Positions 1-6,592 of a stretch of 6,592 bases of DNA are shown here, one piece after another. The translations under genes were made by a program, and so were the position numbers. The notes under the pieces are model-generated. The model was not told the DNA's origin. It did not search any database and saw only the letters and a program-made list of their open reading frames with translations. The number at the start of each line of letters is the position of its first letter. Position 1 is the stretch's first letter. This DNA comes from Caldithrix sp. (lineage in GTDB: Bacteria > KSB1 > UBA2214 > DYKH01): the NCBI GenBank assembly GCA_020722685.1, contig DYKH01000255.1, positions 1-6,592 of the forward strand. The letters run 5' to 3'.

Positions 1-173
1 AAAACCGATGATCGTCAGGGAGGATAATACGCCCTATGGAAGTGAGAAGCCATGAAATCCTGCAGCAAAACTCGGAGGCATGGCACGAAGGCAAATACAA
101 CCCGTGGCCATACATCAACTATCTTTTGTCGATTTTGAAAACGACTTACAAGGAACAGAGGAAATACCCTTAA
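1..173 (+). pseudogene. C-terminal remnant of a Fic-family protein
   Basis: The reading frame ending at the TAA at 171-173 encodes a short segment that looks like the extreme C-terminus of Fic-domain proteins (the family that typically transfers AMP onto target proteins). The diagnostic stretch is EILQQNSEAWHEGKYNPWPY followed by INYLLSILK, matching the family pattern 'SS.GWHEG.H.PWPW..Y' that I know from memory; it belongs to the winged-helix region after the Fic core. The catalytic HxFx(D/E)GNGR motif would lie left of the window and is not visible. Reading upstream in this frame, a TGA occurs at 9-11, only about ten residues before the recognisable part, whereas an intact Fic protein would stay open. 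A frameshift or nonsense mutation near 9-30 is the simplest reading, so I call it a decayed gene. A small independent ORF from the ATG at 36-38 is possible but unlikely. It lies 61 nt upstream of the RhuM gene on the same strand. Confidence 0.6.
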
Positions 174-223: not shown

Positions 224-234
224 TATTGCTTTTC

Positions 235-1278
235 ATGACAAATCTTTCTGACAAAACGCCACGATCCGAATTTCTTCTTTATAACACGGAAGATGGTCGT
301 ACGCGAATTCAGGTTCGTCTGGAAAATGAAACGGTCTGGTTGACTCAAAAGTCGATGGCCGAGCTATTTCAAAAGGATGTCCGGACGATCAATGAACATA
401 TACAGAATATTTTTGATGAAGGAGAGTTGGATTCCGAATCAGTTATCCGGAAATTCCGGATACCTGCCGCCGACGGAAAGTTATACGAGACCAATCATTA
501 TAACCTCGATGTCATCATCTCAGTAGGTTATCGCGTGAAGTCCCATCGAGGCACTCAGTTCCGTATCTGGGCCACCCAGCGGTTGCGGGAATACATTATC
601 AAAGGCTTCACACTGGATGACGAGCGGCTCAAGGAGGCCGGAGGCGGCAACTATTTCGACGAGTTGCTGGCCCGAATCCGGGACATTCGTTCCTCGGAAA
701 AGGTCTTCTGGCGCAAGGTGCTCGATATCTACGCTACCAGTATCGACTACGACCCGAACACAGACATGTCGCACCAATTTTTCGCTATAGTCCAGAACAA
801 AATGCACTGGGCTGTGCACGGTCACACCGCTGCCGAAATCATCGCCGGGCGCGCCGACGCCCAGAAACCTTATATGGGACTGACATCCTGGACAGGGGTA
901 AGACCGAACCAGAACGATATCGAGATCGCCAAAAACTACCTAAGCGCGGAGGAACTGGACACCCTAAACCGGATCGTGACCATATACCTCGATTTTGCTG
1001 AGCTCCAGGCCTTGAACCGCAAGCCTATGTACATGAAAGACTGGATCGCCAAGCTGGATGATTTTCTGAAGGTCAGTGAAAGGGAAATCCTGAAACATGC
1101 TGGTAAGGTCAGCCATGCGGCGGCTATCGAAAAAGCTCGCGGCGAATACGAAAAATTCCGTAAACAGGTGCTCGAAGAACCCTCTCCAGTGGAGCAGCAT
1201 TTTATAGAAGCAGTCCGGGAAGTCAAACAACTGGAGAAGGGTCAACCACGGAACAAAAAGAATAAGCGGAAGGACTAA
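235..1278 (+). CDS. RhuM family protein (Virulence_RhuM, COG3943)
   Basis: This is a complete 347-residue protein of the RhuM family, named after a Salmonella pathogenicity-island gene; its biochemical activity is not established. The whole length matches the family as I know it. The N-terminus has VWLTQKSMAELF (about 34-45), a helix-turn-helix-like segment suggesting DNA binding, then VIRKFRI (70-76), HYNLDVIISVGYRVKS (88-103) and RGTQFRIWAT (from 105). The C-terminal half has MHWAVHGHTAAEII (190-203), PYMGLTSWTG (212-221), MYMKDWI (265-271) and the closing SHAAAIEKA...EYEKFR helix (293-309), ending in a lysine/arginine-rich tail. I start at ATG 235 rather than TTG 226 because of the GAGG spacing. 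RhuM genes frequently accompany Fic genes and type I restriction-modification loci, which fits the Fic remnant just upstream. No signal peptide or membrane segment is visible, so the protein is probably cytoplasmic. The 5' part (to about 420) is lower in GC than the part after 540. Family assignment is firm; function is unknown. Confidence 0.93.
   Translation: MTNLSDKTPRSEFLLYNTEDGRTRIQVRLENETVWLTQKSMAELFQKDVRTINEHIQNIFDEGELDSESVIRKFRIPAADGKLYETNHYNLDVIISVGYRVKSHRGTQFRIWATQRLREYIIKGFTLDDERLKEAGGGNYFDELLARIRDIRSSEKVFWRKVLDIYATSIDYDPNTDMSHQFFAIVQNKMHWAVHGHTAAEIIAGRADAQKPYMGLTSWTGVRPNQNDIEIAKNYLSAEELDTLNRIVTIYLDFAELQALNRKPMYMKDWIAKLDDFLKVSEREILKHAGKVSHAAAIEKARGEYEKFRKQVLEEPSPVEQHFIEAVREVKQLEKGQPRNKKNKRKD
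444..462. repeat. Perfect 19-nt inverted repeat inside the RhuM gene
   Basis: TATCCGGAA, a single central A, then TTCCGGATA form a perfect 9+1+9 palindrome. It lies over codons for the conserved I-R-K-F-R-I segment of RhuM. That peptide can itself generate the symmetry through ATCCGG and TTCCGG codon choices, so a regulatory role is not required. It could still be a protein-binding site or a small mRNA hairpin. Confidence 0.6.
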
Positions 1279-1445
1279 TGGACTTATCCGAAGCATGGCA
1301 AGGGAAGGGTTCATAAATGGTTCAAGGTTTGCAACCTAAAGGGCCAAAAAAGAACCAAATTCCTTACGAGGCCTTAGAGAATATTTAAAGAAGCTTGTCA
1401 TCTATTTATTTACCATCTAAACACAATTCAAGTAAAGGATGGAAA
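1279..1445 (+). other. Intergenic stretch with two tiny ORFs, no clear terminator
   Basis: This 167-nt gap separates the RhuM gene from the PHP-ATPase gene. The RhuM stop overlaps an ATG (TAATG at 1276-1280) opening a 12-residue frame that ends at TAA 1314-1316. The next codon, ATG 1317, opens a 23-residue frame in the same phase ending at TAA 1386-1388 (ends QIPYEALENI, product unrecognised). Read together they look like a small ORF interrupted by one stop, or the worn tail of a lost gene. A 5-bp hairpin (1325-1337) has no following T-run, so I see no rho-independent terminator. The RhuM gene and the downstream pair could therefore share transcription. Confidence 0.4.
1435..1439 (+). promoter_or_regulatory. 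Ribosome binding site of the PHP-ATPase gene
   Basis: AAGGA sits 6 nt before the ATG at 1446, near-ideal spacing. It decides the start in favour of ATG 1446 over the in-frame TTG at 1395, which has no comparable site and would add 17 residues before the conserved PHP domain. Confidence 0.7.
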
Positions 1446-4403
1446 ATGAGCCCTCAATCGTCTCTTTATGATGAACTCTTCAAGGCATTGAATGAACTTC
1501 GGAAACGTACCGCGCGTTTCCACCGCGTGGCACTTCATGTCCACTCACCAGAGAGCTACGACTGGAATAGAACGGGAGATAAAATAATTAATGCGCGAGA
1601 TAAATGGACCTCCGAAAATGGCGAAACCGCGTTGATTAGGGAATTGAAAAAATATTTTGATTTGGTAGCAATCACAGACCATATGAAGTGTTCATATGCT
1701 TGCAGCTTATCTGATGCATGCCGACAAGATGAAGATTTCTTAATCCTCCCTGGAATGGAAGTGAATTTTCAGCCAGAGGCAGCAATTAGTTCCTCACGGA
1801 TACATCTTCTCGTTATACTTCCAGAAGGATCAACAGTAGAAAGGTTTAGCCGCATTTTCGCAGGTCTCGGGAATATTCCGGACGACGCGTCTAGGACAGG
1901 TACTGAGCTTGTGGAAGGGTTACGATTAGATGAATTTATAGGTCGTATTCACAAAGAGGGTGGGCTGTGCATTGCCGCTCATGTCAATTCGCAGCAAGGC
2001 ATTCGACACCATTTTCGCCAAACTGCTGCGGGTATCATTAGTCTATTGACAATTGACCCTGCAAGCCAGCTTGAGCAAGAAAAAAATATTTCCGATGAAT
2101 TGAAAGACTACTTGCTTAGTGTATCCTTTGATGCCTTGGAAATAGCAAAGACTGCAGATAAAAGACATTATCGATGGATCTCGGACAAGAATGGGCAAAA
2201 GGCTGCAATCCCGGTGACGATGCGCTTCGACGCTCATTGTATAGAAGATTTCAACCAACCAAATTTAATCACATGGCTTAAAATGACAACCTTGGGTATC
2301 AAGGGACTACAGAGTGCTCTGAAATTTCCAGAAACCAGGATTCGTTTCGCATCTGATCTGCCGACACCGCCTAGCCCTCTGCTCCTTGGCCTTGAAATTG
2401 TCGGCGACGGTAAGGCGTTATTCGAAAACGAAAGAATAGCTTTTGCTGAAAACCTCAATTGCCTTATCGGTCCGCGCGGATCTGGGAAATCAACGATCGT
2501 TGAGGCTCTGAGATATGTGTTTGGCTATAACCGAACCTTATCTGAACTGGACACCACCAATAAGCTTTCTGAACGTATTCACGAAATGCAGAAAGCGAAT
2601 CTTGCCAACTGCTTAATTCGAGTCGTATATCAAACCCAAACAGGCGATAAGCGGATTCTTGAGGCAACGTTCGATCCTCAAGAGGATTATGCAACTAAGG
2701 TGTTTACCGCTGATGGTGACCAACTACCGGTAGCTGATGTTGAGAAATGCGGGGATTATCCCATGAGGCTATTCGGATGGAGCGAAATTGAGACCTTAGG
2801 TAGGAACACAGCTCTGCAGAGAGATTTATTAGACCGCCTTATTGGAGATTTGCCAGCAGCAAAGCAGGAACGAACCACAATTCGCCACACACTTGAAGCC
2901 AACAGAAAGGAGGTTGAAAAAATAATTGGCGAATTAACCTCAATTTCTTCACGCCAGGATGGTATTATCCAACGCTATTCTGAGTTCAAGGCCGCTTTTG
3001 ATAAGCTAAACACTGATGAAGTTAAAGCGCATTTCGAGGAACTTGATCTTTCTCAAACAAAAGAAAATTTACTGAGAATTTTACAGAAAAATATAATTTC
3101 CTTCAAAACAAAGGTAAGTGATCTCGATGCAAGCACGATAGTAGAAGGCCTGACTGAAATCCTTCAGAAGGGACCTCAATCTTTGCGTGAATGGTGGACA
3201 ACTGATGCATTACAACAGCTCAAAATAATGGATTCCGAAACAGATGTTCAAAAATACCTTTCATCAGCGTTACAAGTTCTTACCGGCCTATCTGACCTAT
3301 TAGGCCAACAGATTGACAAAGTTAATAAAGAAATCAGTTCAATTCAGTCAAGGATCAGAACCTCGTTTGCGGATGATTCATCAATGCAAAAAATAGCCGA
3401 TCTTCGTACGAATGCCGAACGCCGACTAAGGGAAACATCTACGATTCGTGATGAATATTTAAAAACATGGAAAATCATGCGTGAATACCTTGGAAAACGA
3501 AATGAATTTGCTGAGAAACTAAGAACAAGTCACGACCGCGTAGCTGTAATCAGATCACGCCACAATGAAATAATCGAAGAAAGGCTTAACCAATATTTAG
3601 CAGGTCACCTAAAAATATCCCTTCTTTTCAAAGCAGGAAATGATAAGCGATTATTTATAGATGCGGTTATAAAATCAAAGATTCCACATGCCTTTGCCAC
3701 ACAATATCGAAATCGAAAGATCCCTGAGATATTAGCCGCACATTTTGATCCTGTAAGCTTGGTTTGTGCGATTCTTTCCAATGACTATGGTGCGTTTGCT
3801 GATCGTAAGCTGCCTGGAGATGCATCATCATCAATTTCAATTACCGAAGCTAAAAAGGCGGTTGATTCATTGCAACCTTGGGTGAAGGATGAAGGAGCTC
3901 AAGTCGATTTTTTAATCGAGAATGGGGATAGATTGATTACACTAATGAAATTGCAGGAGACTGAATGGGACGATGAAGAAAGCATCCTTCTGAATACTCA
4001 CCCTGTTGGCGAATTATCACCCGGTCAGCGATCAAGCGCGATGCTTCCACTCATCGCACTGGCTGAGGCAACGCCACTGGTTATCGATCAGCCTGAAGAT
4101 AATTTAGACAATAGGCTTATTGGTCAGATTCTTGCTGACATAATAGGGGCGTTAAAAGAGAAACGCCAGATCATAGTATGTACTCACAACCCAAATATCG
4201 TTGTATCCGGTGACGCCGAACAAGTAATTGTCCTTAATGCAATAAGTGATCGCAAGGCGAAAATAGAAAGGCATGGATCCATCGACAATGCAGATATAGT
4301 GCAGTCGGTAATTGATATTATGGAAGGAGGTCGTGAGGCATTTAAAGTTCGGCAACAACGTTATGGAATGGATCTCCCTCCAAATCTGCATGTAGGTGAC
4401 TAA
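1446..4403 (+). CDS. PHP-domain protein with ABC/SMC-type ATPase (TrlF-like)
   Basis: This is a 985-residue two-part protein. The N-terminal PHP phosphoesterase domain (about 22-270) keeps the expected metal ligands: HVH (H31, H33), TDH (D78, H79), PGMEV (E105), AAHVNS (H179), DALE (E232) and the final DAH (D262, H264). PHP domains bind two or three metal ions and hydrolyse phosphoesters, including DNA in polymerase-associated relatives. The second part is an ABC-type ATPase of the Rad50/SMC/RloC class: Walker A GPRGSGKST (342-350, Lys348), a long charged helical insert (about 460-730), signature LSPGQR (857-862), Walker B LVIDQPEDNLD (878-888, Asp881 and Glu884) and the switch histidine in CTHNPN (His914). 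All catalytic parts look intact. From memory this architecture is annotated in databases as 'TrlF family AAA-like ATPase'; I have not checked this. There is no signal peptide or membrane helix, so it is probably cytoplasmic and nucleic-acid acting. Its TAA overlaps the ATG of the methyltransferase gene, marking an operon. GC is about 42% near its 3' end by hand count, well below the next gene. A defence nuclease role is inferred. Confidence 0.9.
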   Translation: MSPQSSLYDELFKALNELRKRTARFHRVALHVHSPESYDWNRTGDKIINARDKWTSENGETALIRELKKYFDLVAITDHMKCSYACSLSDACRQDEDFLILPGMEVNFQPEAAISSSRIHLLVILPEGSTVERFSRIFAGLGNIPDDASRTGTELVEGLRLDEFIGRIHKEGGLCIAAHVNSQQGIRHHFRQTAAGIISLLTIDPASQLEQEKNISDELKDYLLSVSFDALEIAKTADKRHYRWISDKNGQKAAIPVTMRFDAHCIEDFNQPNLITWLKMTTLGIKGLQSALKFPETRIRFASDLPTPPSPLLLGLEIVGDGKALFENERIAFAENLNCLIGPRGSGKSTIVEALRYVFGYNRTLSELDTTNKLSERIHEMQKANLANCLIRVVYQTQTGDKRILEATFDPQEDYATKVFTADGDQLPVADVEKCGDYPMRLFGWSEIETLGRNTALQRDLLDRLIGDLPAAKQERTTIRHTLEANRKEVEKIIGELTSISSRQDGIIQRYSEFKAAFDKLNTDEVKAHFEELDLSQTKENLLRILQKNIISFKTKVSDLDASTIVEGLTEILQKGPQSLREWWTTDALQQLKIMDSETDVQKYLSSALQVLTGLSDLLGQQIDKVNKEISSIQSRIRTSFADDSSMQKIADLRTNAERRLRETSTIRDEYLKTWKIMREYLGKRNEFAEKLRTSHDRVAVIRSRHNEIIEERLNQYLAGHLKISLLFKAGNDKRLFIDAVIKSKIPHAFATQYRNRKIPEILAAHFDPVSLVCAILSNDYGAFADRKLPGDASSSISITEAKKAVDSLQPWVKDEGAQVDFLIENGDRLITLMKLQETEWDDEESILLNTHPVGELSPGQRSSAMLPLIALAEATPLVIDQPEDNLDNRLIGQILADIIGALKEKRQIIVCTHNPNIVVSGDAEQVIVLNAISDRKAKIERHGSIDNADIVQSVIDIMEGGREAFKVRQQRYGMDLPPNLHVGD

Positions 4404-4405
4404 TG
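4394..4405 (+). promoter_or_regulatory. TAATG stop-start overlap with weak RBS
   Basis: The PHP-ATPase stop TAA (4401-4403) shares its last base with the methyltransferase ATG (4403-4405). A Shine-Dalgarno-like AGGTGA at 4394-4399 lies only 3 nt from the ATG, close for independent initiation. Termination-reinitiation by ribosomes finishing the upstream gene is therefore the likely route, tying the two protein levels together. Confidence 0.7.
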
Positions 4406-6592
4406 ATTCCCAAAGAATGCAAAAGGTTGGCCGAAGTCGATTTTCCCATTGCCGTGGTTTCGAAGCACTCGGCGCGTGAGAAGTCCATCCGACATGGCCA
4501 CCCTTCGACGCTGCACCTTTGGTGGGCAAGGCGGCCGCTGGCGGCCTGCCGGTCGATGTTGATGGCGTTGCTCCTGCCCGATCCGTGCGATCCACTTTGC
4601 CCTGCGGCGTTCAAGGCGAGCGCAAAGGAATCCTTACTCCACATGCCCGGCTGGAACACACCGCGCATGACCGAACAGGTAAAGTCAGACGAGGGTCTGC
4701 GCAAAGCGCTTCTTACCTTCATCGGGGATTTTGCCGATTGGGACAACTCTGCGAACGATAATTTTCTCATTACGGCCCGCGCACTTGTTAAGGCAGCCCA
4801 TCCGGATGAGACCCCCTTGGTCGTGGACCCGTTCGCCGGGGGCGGCTCGATACCTCTGGAGGCATTAAGGCTCGGCTGCGACGCATTCGCCAGCGATCTC
4901 AATCCAGTGGCTTGTCTCATCCTCAAGGTAATGCTGGAGGATATCCCCCGTCACGGACCGGAGCTTGCCAAGGAACTGCGTCGGGTCGGCGGTGAGATCA
5001 AGAAACAGGCCGAGAAGGAACTTGCCGAGTTTTATCCCAGGGACCCAGACGGAGCCACGCCGATAGCCTATCTCTGGGCCCGGACGGTCAGATGCGAATC
5101 CCCCAACTGCGGAGCGGAGATTCCGCTCATGCGGTCATTCTGGCTCTGCAAGAAGCCCGGGCGGATGCGAGCGCTTAAGTTGAAAGTCGTGCGGCAGAAA
5201 GCCGGGCCGCCACGCGTTGAGTTTGAGATATTCGAGCCGAAAACAGATAAGGATGTCCGCGGAGGGACAGTTACCCGAGCCAAGGCAACTTGTCCTTGCT
5301 GCGGCACGGTTTTACCCCCGGAGCGGGTGCGTGCGCAGCTCTCCGAACAGCGCGGCGGGGCGGATGTGATTTTTGATGCCAATGGTAAGCGCATTGGCGG
5401 TGCGCGAATGCTTGCTGTTGTAATGCTGTCCCCTAGTATTCAGGGGCGCATCTATCGGCTTCCCACCGAGCGTGATTACGACGCCGTCTGGAAGGCTCAG
5501 AAGCGGCTCAAAGCTATTGTGGACGATTGGGAAAGAGGCGGACGTAAAGGGCTTTGCCCGGTGCCGGATGAACCATTGCCACCGATTGGAACTCTTGGTT
5601 TCCGCGTTCAGCGTTATGGCATGCTTCAGTGGAGCGATCTTTTCGCGGCTAGGCAGAAGTTGGAGTTGCTTTTGGTCGCAGAATCTATTCGTCGATGTAC
5701 TACCTCAGATAATCTGTTTCTTCCGACAATGGCATATGGCCGGTGCGTAGATCATTGGAGCGCGAATGCCATGTGGATTCAGGATCTTGAAGCAGTTGCG
5801 CACACATTTGGCCGACAAGCATTACCCATCGTTTGGGATTTTGTCGAAGCTGTCGGTCTTGGCGATGGCGGGGCCAACTTTGAGGGGCAGATTGATTGGG
5901 TGGCAAGAGTAATTGAGATGAATTCTCCAGGATTGACAGAAGCCGGACAAACCCAACTTGCTGACGCGAGTGAACACCCATTCCCTGATAGCAGTGTAAA
6001 CGTGTGGTTCACTGATCCTCCATATTATGACGCAATTCCCTATTCGGACTTATCTGATTATTTTTTCGTTTGGGCCAAACGGATTCTCGGCGAGCATCAG
6101 CTTTTGCGTGATCCGTTTGACAATACAAATCCATTAACCCCTAAAATTCGCGAAGCAGTCCAAGATGAAACCAAAAAGGTCGATGGTTTTCCTAAGGATA
6201 AAGACTTTTTTGAAAAGAAAATGGCTGCAAGCTTTGGCGAAGGGCGACGGATCCTTAACCCAGATGGTGTAGGTTGCGTTGTTTTTGCCCATAAAACCAC
6301 CGAAGGATGGGAGGCCTTGTTGTCGGGTCTGTTAAGGGCTGGTTGGGTAATAACGGCTTCATGGCCAATAAGTACGGAGAGGCCTGTGCGGCTTCGCTCA
6401 CTGCAGAGTGCGGCTCTAGCCGGAAGTGTCCACCTCGTATGCCGTCCGCGTCCGGATGATGCGCCGGTAGGCGACTGGGGTGAAGTCCTGCGCGAGCTTC
6501 CCAAGCGTGTCGGCGACTGGATGGAACGTCTTCAGACTGAAAACATACGCGGCGCTGATCTGGTTTTTGCCTGCATCGGGCCGGCACTGGAG
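4403..6592 (+). CDS. DUF1156 adenine-specific DNA methyltransferase with Zn ribbon (COG1743), 3' truncated
   Basis: I translated this frame codon by codon: it is open for exactly 730 codons and runs off the right edge without a stop. It begins with the DUF1156 hallmark HPSTLHLWWARRPLAA (33-48). The SAM-binding motif I is DPFAGGGSIPLEA (142-154), followed by SDLNP (164-168). The catalytic motif is TDPPYYDAIPYSDLSDYFFV (537-556); DPPY is the form typical of N6-adenine methylases. Between them is a long insert with a zinc ribbon, CESPNC (C231, C236) and CPCCG (C297, C300). A later WPISTE (654-659) is also family-like. Motif I before DPPY with an insert between resembles the alpha order of amino-methyltransferases. 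Family members are, from memory, some 850-1000 residues, so probably 100-250 are missing. The start is fixed by the TAATG overlap. Such genes occur in defence islands, often beside DUF499 ATPases and helicases; the next genes are not visible. The first 1 kb is GC-rich and 6000-6240 is AT-rich. No self-restricting nuclease is seen in this protein. Confidence 0.93.
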   Translation, partial: MIPKECKRLAEVDFPIAVVSKHSAREKSIRHGHPSTLHLWWARRPLAACRSMLMALLLPDPCDPLCPAAFKASAKESLLHMPGWNTPRMTEQVKSDEGLRKALLTFIGDFADWDNSANDNFLITARALVKAAHPDETPLVVDPFAGGGSIPLEALRLGCDAFASDLNPVACLILKVMLEDIPRHGPELAKELRRVGGEIKKQAEKELAEFYPRDPDGATPIAYLWARTVRCESPNCGAEIPLMRSFWLCKKPGRMRALKLKVVRQKAGPPRVEFEIFEPKTDKDVRGGTVTRAKATCPCCGTVLPPERVRAQLSEQRGGADVIFDANGKRIGGARMLAVVMLSPSIQGRIYRLPTERDYDAVWKAQKRLKAIVDDWERGGRKGLCPVPDEPLPPIGTLGFRVQRYGMLQWSDLFAARQKLELLLVAESIRRCTTSDNLFLPTMAYGRCVDHWSANAMWIQDLEAVAHTFGRQALPIVWDFVEAVGLGDGGANFEGQIDWVARVIEMNSPGLTEAGQTQLADASEHPFPDSSVNVWFTDPPYYDAIPYSDLSDYFFVWAKRILGEHQLLRDPFDNTNPLTPKIREAVQDETKKVDGFPKDKDFFEKKMAASFGEGRRILNPDGVGCVVFAHKTTEGWEALLSGLLRAGWVITASWPISTERPVRLRSLQSAALAGSVHLVCRPRPDDAPVGDWGEVLRELPKRVGDWMERLQTENIRGADLVFACIGPALE

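Follow-up and report, generated by a model that had tools for sequence, protein, structure and literature searches.

A TrlF-family PHP-ATPase gene overlapping an HmaB-like DUF1156 methylase gene in Caldithrix sp.: a putative accessory effector of a BREX-related operon

The overlapping gene pair

The window analysed here, a 6,592-base stretch of contig DYKH01000255.1 from Caldithrix sp., carries on its forward strand a gene for a TrlF-family PHP-ATPase, which overlaps by a single base the start of a gene for a DUF1156 DNA methylase of the HmaB type. The PHP-ATPase is on record from one contig of 7942 bases, so the window belongs to a short contig, probably metagenomic. TrlF genes elsewhere recur beside bacteriophage exclusion (BREX), BREX-related (BR) and similar systems, and the pair is read here as a putative part of such an operon. 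The features of the pair are as follows.

1434..1439, + strand, Shine-Dalgarno-like AAAGGA, 6 bases 5' of the PHP-ATPase ATG (direct sequence reading)
1446..4403, + strand, TrlF-family PHP-ATPase, 985 aa (NF045780, 373 bits; PADLOC Ppl, 116 bits)
1512..2363, + strand, PHP domain, residues 23-306 (fold matches 2anu and 7k30; conservation counts; alignment with Escherichia coli Ppl)
2373..4337, + strand, SMC/Rad50-like ATPase, residues 310-964 (PF02463, PF13175, PF13476, PF13304; fold search; model secondary structure)
4401..4405, + strand, TAATG, one-base overlap of the PHP-ATPase TAA and the methylase ATG (direct sequence reading)
4403..6592, + strand, HmaB-like DUF1156 N6-adenine DNA methylase, first 730 codons, 3' end past the window (PF06634; PADLOC HmaB, 337 bits)
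4826..4849, + strand, methylase S-adenosylmethionine-binding motif I, DPFAGGGS (direct sequence reading)
5093..5302, + strand, methylase Cys cluster, zinc-ribbon-like: C231, C236, C249, C297, C300 (sequence; alignment A2)
6014..6028, + strand, methylase catalytic motif IV, DPPYY (sequence; alignment A2)

The PHP-ATPase passes the model for TrlF family AAA-like ATPases (NF045780, curated cut-off 350 bits) over residues 22-974, and lies below the Ppl model (NF042955; 168 bits against a curated cut-off of 1000), of which it is a homologue and not a member. Fold search places a PHP fold in the N-terminal domain; a call by Pfam alone was dropped as too weak (E 0.048), and the fold match and conservation were used instead. 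The candidate metal-site residues are H31, H33, D78, H79, E105, H120, H179, D262 and H264. All nine are conserved in every covering row of alignment A1, which represents the clade of the window TrlF, and are common to the window TrlF and E. coli Ppl; the metal-binding role of these residues is assumed from the PHP family. The ATPase part has a Rad50-like fold in fold search, with a P-loop (GPRGSGKST, 342-350), a signature motif (SPGQ, 858-861), a Walker B motif (LVIDQPED, 878-885), an H-loop (H914) and a coiled coil at about 469-715. AriA is among its best PADLOC and PDB sequence matches.

The methylase is of the HmaB type by its PF06634 match and its best PADLOC match, and is 46-81% identical (tblastn) to the methylases of the 18 related loci described below (L160-L177). 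It does not reach another DUF1156 model, NF042963 (197 of 1000 bits). The Cys-cluster columns and DPPYY are invariant in alignment A2 (17 relatives). Relatives are about 1010 residues long; the frames called in L165, L168, L172 and L175 are longer (1165-1268 aa), and a DUF559/Vsr-like domain (PF04480, PF18741) is present in several database relatives of about 1160-1190 aa. The first-pass annotation of this DNA had described two large genes overlapping at TAATG, an intact PHP site and ATPase, and an intact DPPY methylase with a zinc ribbon. The sequence, the conserved PHP positions and the ATPase motifs bear out the first two; for the methylase, the catalytic motif and Cys cluster are present, and the gene runs off the window.

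The TAATG overlap makes translational coupling of the two genes likely. Positions 1200-1500 gave no promoter or terminator match, and the window no Rfam match. Among the window proteins searched, there is no restriction or specificity subunit of a type I, II or III restriction-modification (R-M) system, the downstream side being truncated, and no PglZ, PglX, BrxC or BrxL of BREX proper, the flanks lying beyond the window.

Two further genes lie upstream of the pair.

54..170, + strand, C-terminal tail of a probable Fic-like protein, truncated by the window start (39-residue frame to the stop)
226..1278, + strand, RhuM-family protein, 350 aa (PF13310, 385 bits; PADLOC candidate family PDC-S05, 521 bits)

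The RhuM-family gene is probably separate cargo, and it and the Fic-like tail before it are possibly further cargo of the same locus. The tail has no match in a Pfam search; its resemblance to the Fic protein of locus L162 is weak (14 of 34 residues identical, E 2e-05 in a comparison with three sequences).

Gene order around related methylases and TrlF genes

A close relative of the window methylase (P0121) was used as query at E 1e-150 or better against 395 genomes sampled from the phylum to which a Smithella locus belongs, which we take to be Desulfobacterota; it matched 18 places in 16 genomes, all of which were fetched. A DUF499 ATPase gene follows the methylase gene on the same strand in 14 of the 18 loci; the contigs of the other four (L162, L163, L167, L173) stop within the methylase gene or just past it. 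Upstream, 13 loci have a helicase match, which is in broken pieces in L170. In L168, L176 and L177 the contig begins at the methylase, leaving no upstream stretch for a helicase, and none was found in the 4.5 kb upstream in L166 or the 1.9 kb in L171. Locus L160 has, in order, PADLOC matches to HmaA (562 bits), HmaB (347 bits) and HmaC (290 bits). The system around these methylases is Hma, named Type-1 BREX-related in the main text of PMC12839542.

At least one extra gene stands between helicase and methylase in 11 of the 13 loci having both, L172 and L175 being without one. The gap genes encode Schlafen AlbA_2 proteins (L160, L164, L173), UvrD (L160), a HerA-like protein (L163), TIR (L169), AAA and DUF4276 proteins (L165), Fic (L162) and a chimera (L167), and genes of no named family stand there in L161, L170 and L174. 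The chimera (L167:3952-5130, 392 aa) adjoins the DUF1156 methylase on its 5' side. Its PHP N-terminus is TrlF-like and has lost the HxH motif, with 48% identity to the TrlF of L022 over residues 16-109, and a RecG/Schlafen-type C-terminal ATPase domain follows. In the window, TrlF takes the place immediately 5' of the methylase.

A TrlF (P0004, 73% identical) and a methylase (P0124, 77%) each come from one 7392-base contig of the same source, so a second contig very likely has the adjacent pair as well. A FastTree phylogeny (129 methylases) groups the window methylase with P0124, P0125 and P0148 in a clade of four (support 0.98). The similar divergence of TrlF and methylase suggests that they were inherited together. 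The G+C content steps at the junction, from 0.37-0.46 in TrlF to 0.57-0.61 over the initial 1.2 kb of the methylase gene, which fits a cargo gene arriving later. On the adjacency that the first-pass annotation had proposed to survey, a second contig very likely bears the pair; a full TrlF lies in none of the 18 methylase loci.

The surroundings of TrlF were compared in the best 80 of 294 TrlF relatives (80 loci, 1.24 Mb). One, L007, is a fragment without a called TrlF open reading frame (ORF), so that 79 were counted; these include shorter PHP-less ATPases (L027, L034-L037) and truncated genes, and more than 3 kb is available on both sides in 43 of them. A strict count used eight seed proteins from outside the genome loci, five of them plasmid genes chosen for nearness to TrlF, and scored a match within 10 kb of TrlF. 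By this count 10/79 loci have a match to a seed from BREX, BREX-related or similar methylase-helicase systems, and in 5/79 the match abuts TrlF on the same strand; three of the 10 scoring loci (L009, L045, L057) rest on a helicase match alone. None of 60 control regions had a match with either seed set (Fisher P 0.005 for 10/79 against 0/60); these regions total 0.92 Mb, come from 50 genomes holding a fetched TrlF locus and are mostly contig starts. The strict count replaced one with 22 seeds (17/79), several of which came from scored loci and one of which, a 'BrxC' seed, was void (wrong frame). A within-locus control, in which 5 of 129 ORFs of at least 500 aa had an abutting seed match, was set aside as uninformative, because all five lie in L008, L037, L055 and L057 and are probably parts of BREX or Dpd/DISARM-like systems. 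Across 49 TrlF genomes, about 229 Mb summed, there are 31 DUF1156 domains, and a DUF1156 methylase lies within 10 kb of TrlF in 2/49 loci (L002, L022) against about 0.13 expected by arithmetic. Given the choice of seeds, the helicase-only matches, the uneven locus sizes and the clustering of defence genes, these counts indicate association and not specificity.

The architectures differ from locus to locus. In L002, a metagenome-assembled genome of Rhodopirellula, the order is ATPase, small ORF, DUF1156 methylase, DUF499 with HEPN_Swt1, and TrlF, with an overlap of 13-14 bases by called ORF among the last three; the small ORF is HNH-like by eye, without a Pfam match, and no helicase lies within the fetched stretch. 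The order in L022 is DUF499, DUF3780, DUF1156, PLD-helicase and, 573 bp further, TrlF, a layout that fits the Type-2 BREX-related system as described in the main text of PMC12839542. In L057, TrlF comes 10 bp after a methylase whose best match is DrmMI (239 bits), and a helicase (DpdE, 872 bits) also lies on its 5' side; in L091, whose TrlF is 58% identical to that of the window, TrlF follows a PLD-SNF2 helicase and an Eco57I/TaqI_C methylase. In L055 an Eco57I-type, PglX-like gene overlaps TrlF, and a BrxL match lies 3.6 kb on; L004 has a type I restriction subunit nearby on the opposite strand. With the window TrlF as query at E 1e-60, four draws of genomes gave matches in 1/395 (G087), 1/294 (the genome of L004), 1/8 (G087 again) and 0/247.

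Further arrangements were seen around divergent TrlF genes. The BREX-1-like locus L037 (1863-11830) has PglX, PglZ and BrxL matches followed directly by a PHP-less TrlF-like ATPase of 629 aa, possibly a sensor-only form. Beside three TrlFs without the HxH motif (L181, L182, L022) lie an N-6 methylase, BrxL and a Type-2 BREX-related operon. Distant TrlF genes (L009, L011, L019, L026, L040, L050 and others) often have a Schlafen AlbA_2-like gene within a few bases 3' (24 loci in one neighbour cluster, named by eye), and perhaps form a two-gene defence unit of their own. In L043 (8099-17460) two TrlF genes stand behind an Eco57I-type methylase, and a gene of the Schlafen-like cluster follows each of them.

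Plasmids were sampled as 13 annotated regions among the top entries of 1118 listed records, with an incomplete gene table. A methylase or BREX gene is close to the TrlF-like gene in six: the order DUF1156, TrlF, DUF262, DUF499, SNF2 on mixed strands in Halapricum, pglX and pglZ in Paraburkholderia, an N-6 methylase in Chitinibacter, a type ISP fragment in Comamonas, brxL in Klebsiella grimontii, and brxL and pglZ in Polaromonas. The annotated stretch holds none in the other seven (5 of the 11 TrlF-like regions and both Ppl regions). Viral contigs yielded no relative with the single window TrlF protein as query and 43 distant relatives, many of them PHP-less ATPases, with an alignment as query; none of five viral DUF1156 loci had a TrlF match. 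In viral contigs such as L097-L103, L106-L110, L112-L114, L116, L120, L126 and L127, a PHP-less TrlF-like ATPase is followed by a kinase-like gene, and many of these loci also have a response-regulator-like gene (both named by eye). Phage records gave seven matches, all below 60% identity.

Interpretation of the pair

We lean, with moderate confidence, towards the reading that the window is the middle of an Hma/Type-1 BREX-related operon with an exchangeable accessory effector, TrlF, as a Ppl-like backup layer. The DUF1156 methylase would mark host DNA with N6-methyladenine, and its predicted partners are a DUF499 ATPase, which would be encoded immediately 3' of it, and an HmaA-type helicase-nuclease, which would be encoded on its 5' side; together the three would scan for and restrict unmarked DNA. 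TrlF would occupy the changeable gene slot 5' of the methylase and be co-translated with it. By analogy, the window TrlF probably works like E. coli Ppl, described in PMC12904381 as a nucleoside triphosphate (NTP)-inhibited single-stranded DNA 3'-5' exonuclease requiring 3'-OH ends. Nucleotides on the ATPase and PHP sites would keep TrlF off, and a drop in the nucleotide pool together with free 3' DNA ends, including those from the primary restriction complex, would let the PHP domain digest DNA 3' to 5'. TrlF may thus finish DNA nicked by the core, or act when the core is blocked, as a layer behind modification-based restriction. For BREX, the main text of PMC12839542 proposes that the first PglZ nick may signal auxiliary effectors, which fits such a hand-off.

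Several observations weigh against this reading. Identity between the window TrlF and Ppl is low (26% over 417 residues, 27% over 249), so that Ppl biochemistry may not carry over. For this genome the helicase and DUF499 genes are a prediction, their expected positions being beyond the window, and full-length TrlF is found in 0/18 methylase loci. The genomes of L001 and L005, near relatives of the window TrlF, have no DUF1156 match genome-wide, nor has either locus a match to any of the 22 seeds near TrlF; TrlF can therefore exist without the methylase. The PHP HxH motif is replaced (ALQVN) in the TrlFs of L181, L182 and L022, and L037, linked to BREX genes, lacks PHP altogether; the PHP nuclease is thus not the whole function everywhere. 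Finally, the enrichment could be ordinary defence-island clustering, as the control consists of genome regions and not of other defence genes.

It is very unlikely that the two genes form a self-contained modification and restriction unit, in which the methylase marks the host and the PHP-ATPase attacks unmarked DNA directly. The one-base overlap, the same pair inferred on a second contig at similar divergence (73% and 77%) and the strongly supported clade (0.98) shared with P0124 would fit it. The relatives argue otherwise: DUF499 lies 3' of the methylase in 14/14 relative loci whose contig continues, the 18 methylase loci lack a full TrlF, and L001 and L005 lack the methylase. This three-gene core, and the occurrence of TrlF without methylase, keep a two-gene unit from leading. 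The modification-linked defence operon of the first-pass annotation accordingly stands as to its defence context, given the HmaB-like methylase and its Hma relatives, but not as a self-contained pair, as the relatives have three-gene operons.

An independent role for TrlF, as a Ppl-like defence gene that came to lie in a defence hot spot and whose adjacency to the methylase is functionally meaningless, is unlikely, if by no means far-fetched: some TrlF-like and Ppl genes have no methylase or BREX gene listed nearby, the slot 5' of the methylase hosts many unrelated genes, and the G+C step lies at the junction. However, the reading frames overlap, the pair is very likely kept in two diverged contigs, and TrlF is recurrently linked to BREX, BR and Dpd/DISARM-like systems of differing architecture, abutting on the same strand in 5/79 loci. 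Quite unlikely, too, is a PARIS-like guard of the core, the ATPase sensing phage anti-restriction proteins or a failed core and stopping the cell otherwise than by DNA degradation. The main text of PMC12839542 reports PARIS-like OLD-ABC modules as BREX/BR backup effectors, the ATPase part has AriA among its best matches, and PHP-degenerate and PHP-less TrlFs are still linked to BREX or methylase genes; yet every covering row of the window's clade keeps the PHP site, which argues for catalysis here.

An extension of the accessory-effector reading, tentative and rather doubtful, would make TrlF PHP-ATPases a general, as yet unlisted effector class for BREX, DUF499-centred BREX-related, Dpd/DISARM-like and type IIG-like units. 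A 3' end created when the core first cuts or nicks unmarked DNA would license the NTP-gated PHP exonuclease; methylation state would thereby indirectly control a Ppl-like nuclease, and forms with a dead or missing PHP domain would be sensors only.

Relation to known systems

TrlF, Ppl and the Hma/BR systems are already known. What appears new is a TrlF PHP-ATPase as the putative accessory effector of a DUF499-type methylase operon, a link unreported in the literature searched: no paper was found joining TrlF, or 'PHP domain', with BREX. The BREX/BR backup effectors catalogued in the main text of PMC12839542 are HNH, HKD, PD-(D/E)XK, TOPRIM/OLD, HEPN, PIN and Schlafen proteins. The word PHP is absent from that text, though its supplement, outside this check, may list PHP genes, and the words PHP, TrlF and Ppl are absent from the main texts of PMC12458937 and PMC12707154. 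If the preferred reading is true, it joins two ideas studied apart, methylation-gated restriction and nucleases of the Ppl type that are controlled by DNA ends and nucleotide levels, and the slot 5' of the methylase becomes a place to seek more effectors. Should TrlF belong among the BREX/BR backup effectors, it would be a further class with a ready biochemical model.

The window methylase shares with Hma/Type-1 BR systems its family, with the PADLOC HmaB match, and the changeable cargo gene that lies 5' of the methylase in close relatives; the window differs in having a TrlF PHP-ATPase in that place, and the helicase and DUF499 genes would lie beyond it. With the TrlF family (NF045780) the window PHP-ATPase shares a full-length match over the cut-off and the combination of PHP and ABC/SMC ATPase. 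The name TrlF is used for the Photorhabdus TRL operon, linked to temperature restriction, for which the passages of PMC7554251 concerned report no mutations in trlF; unlike that protein as described there, the window TrlF is in an intact-PHP clade and beside a DUF1156 methylase. The same source gives one printed hint of a link between TrlF and methylases, in that plasmid pYR3 has, inside a trl-like cluster, two small genes whose annotation is type I methyltransferase subunit (PMC7554251).

Ppl (NF042955) resembles the window TrlF in domain order, in the nine PHP positions and probably in mechanism, but is a single-gene system, two Ppl plasmid loci being without a listed methylase neighbour, and the window TrlF is far below its cut-off. 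Classical type I-III R-M systems likewise set a methylase beside a nuclease candidate, but the window has no specificity or type I/III restriction subunit. The PARIS/OLD-ABC effectors also combine an ABC-type ATPase with a nuclease as an add-on to a modification-based core; in the window protein, the domain fused N-terminally to the coiled-coil ATPase is PHP, and not TOPRIM, HNH, PIN or PD-(D/E)XK.

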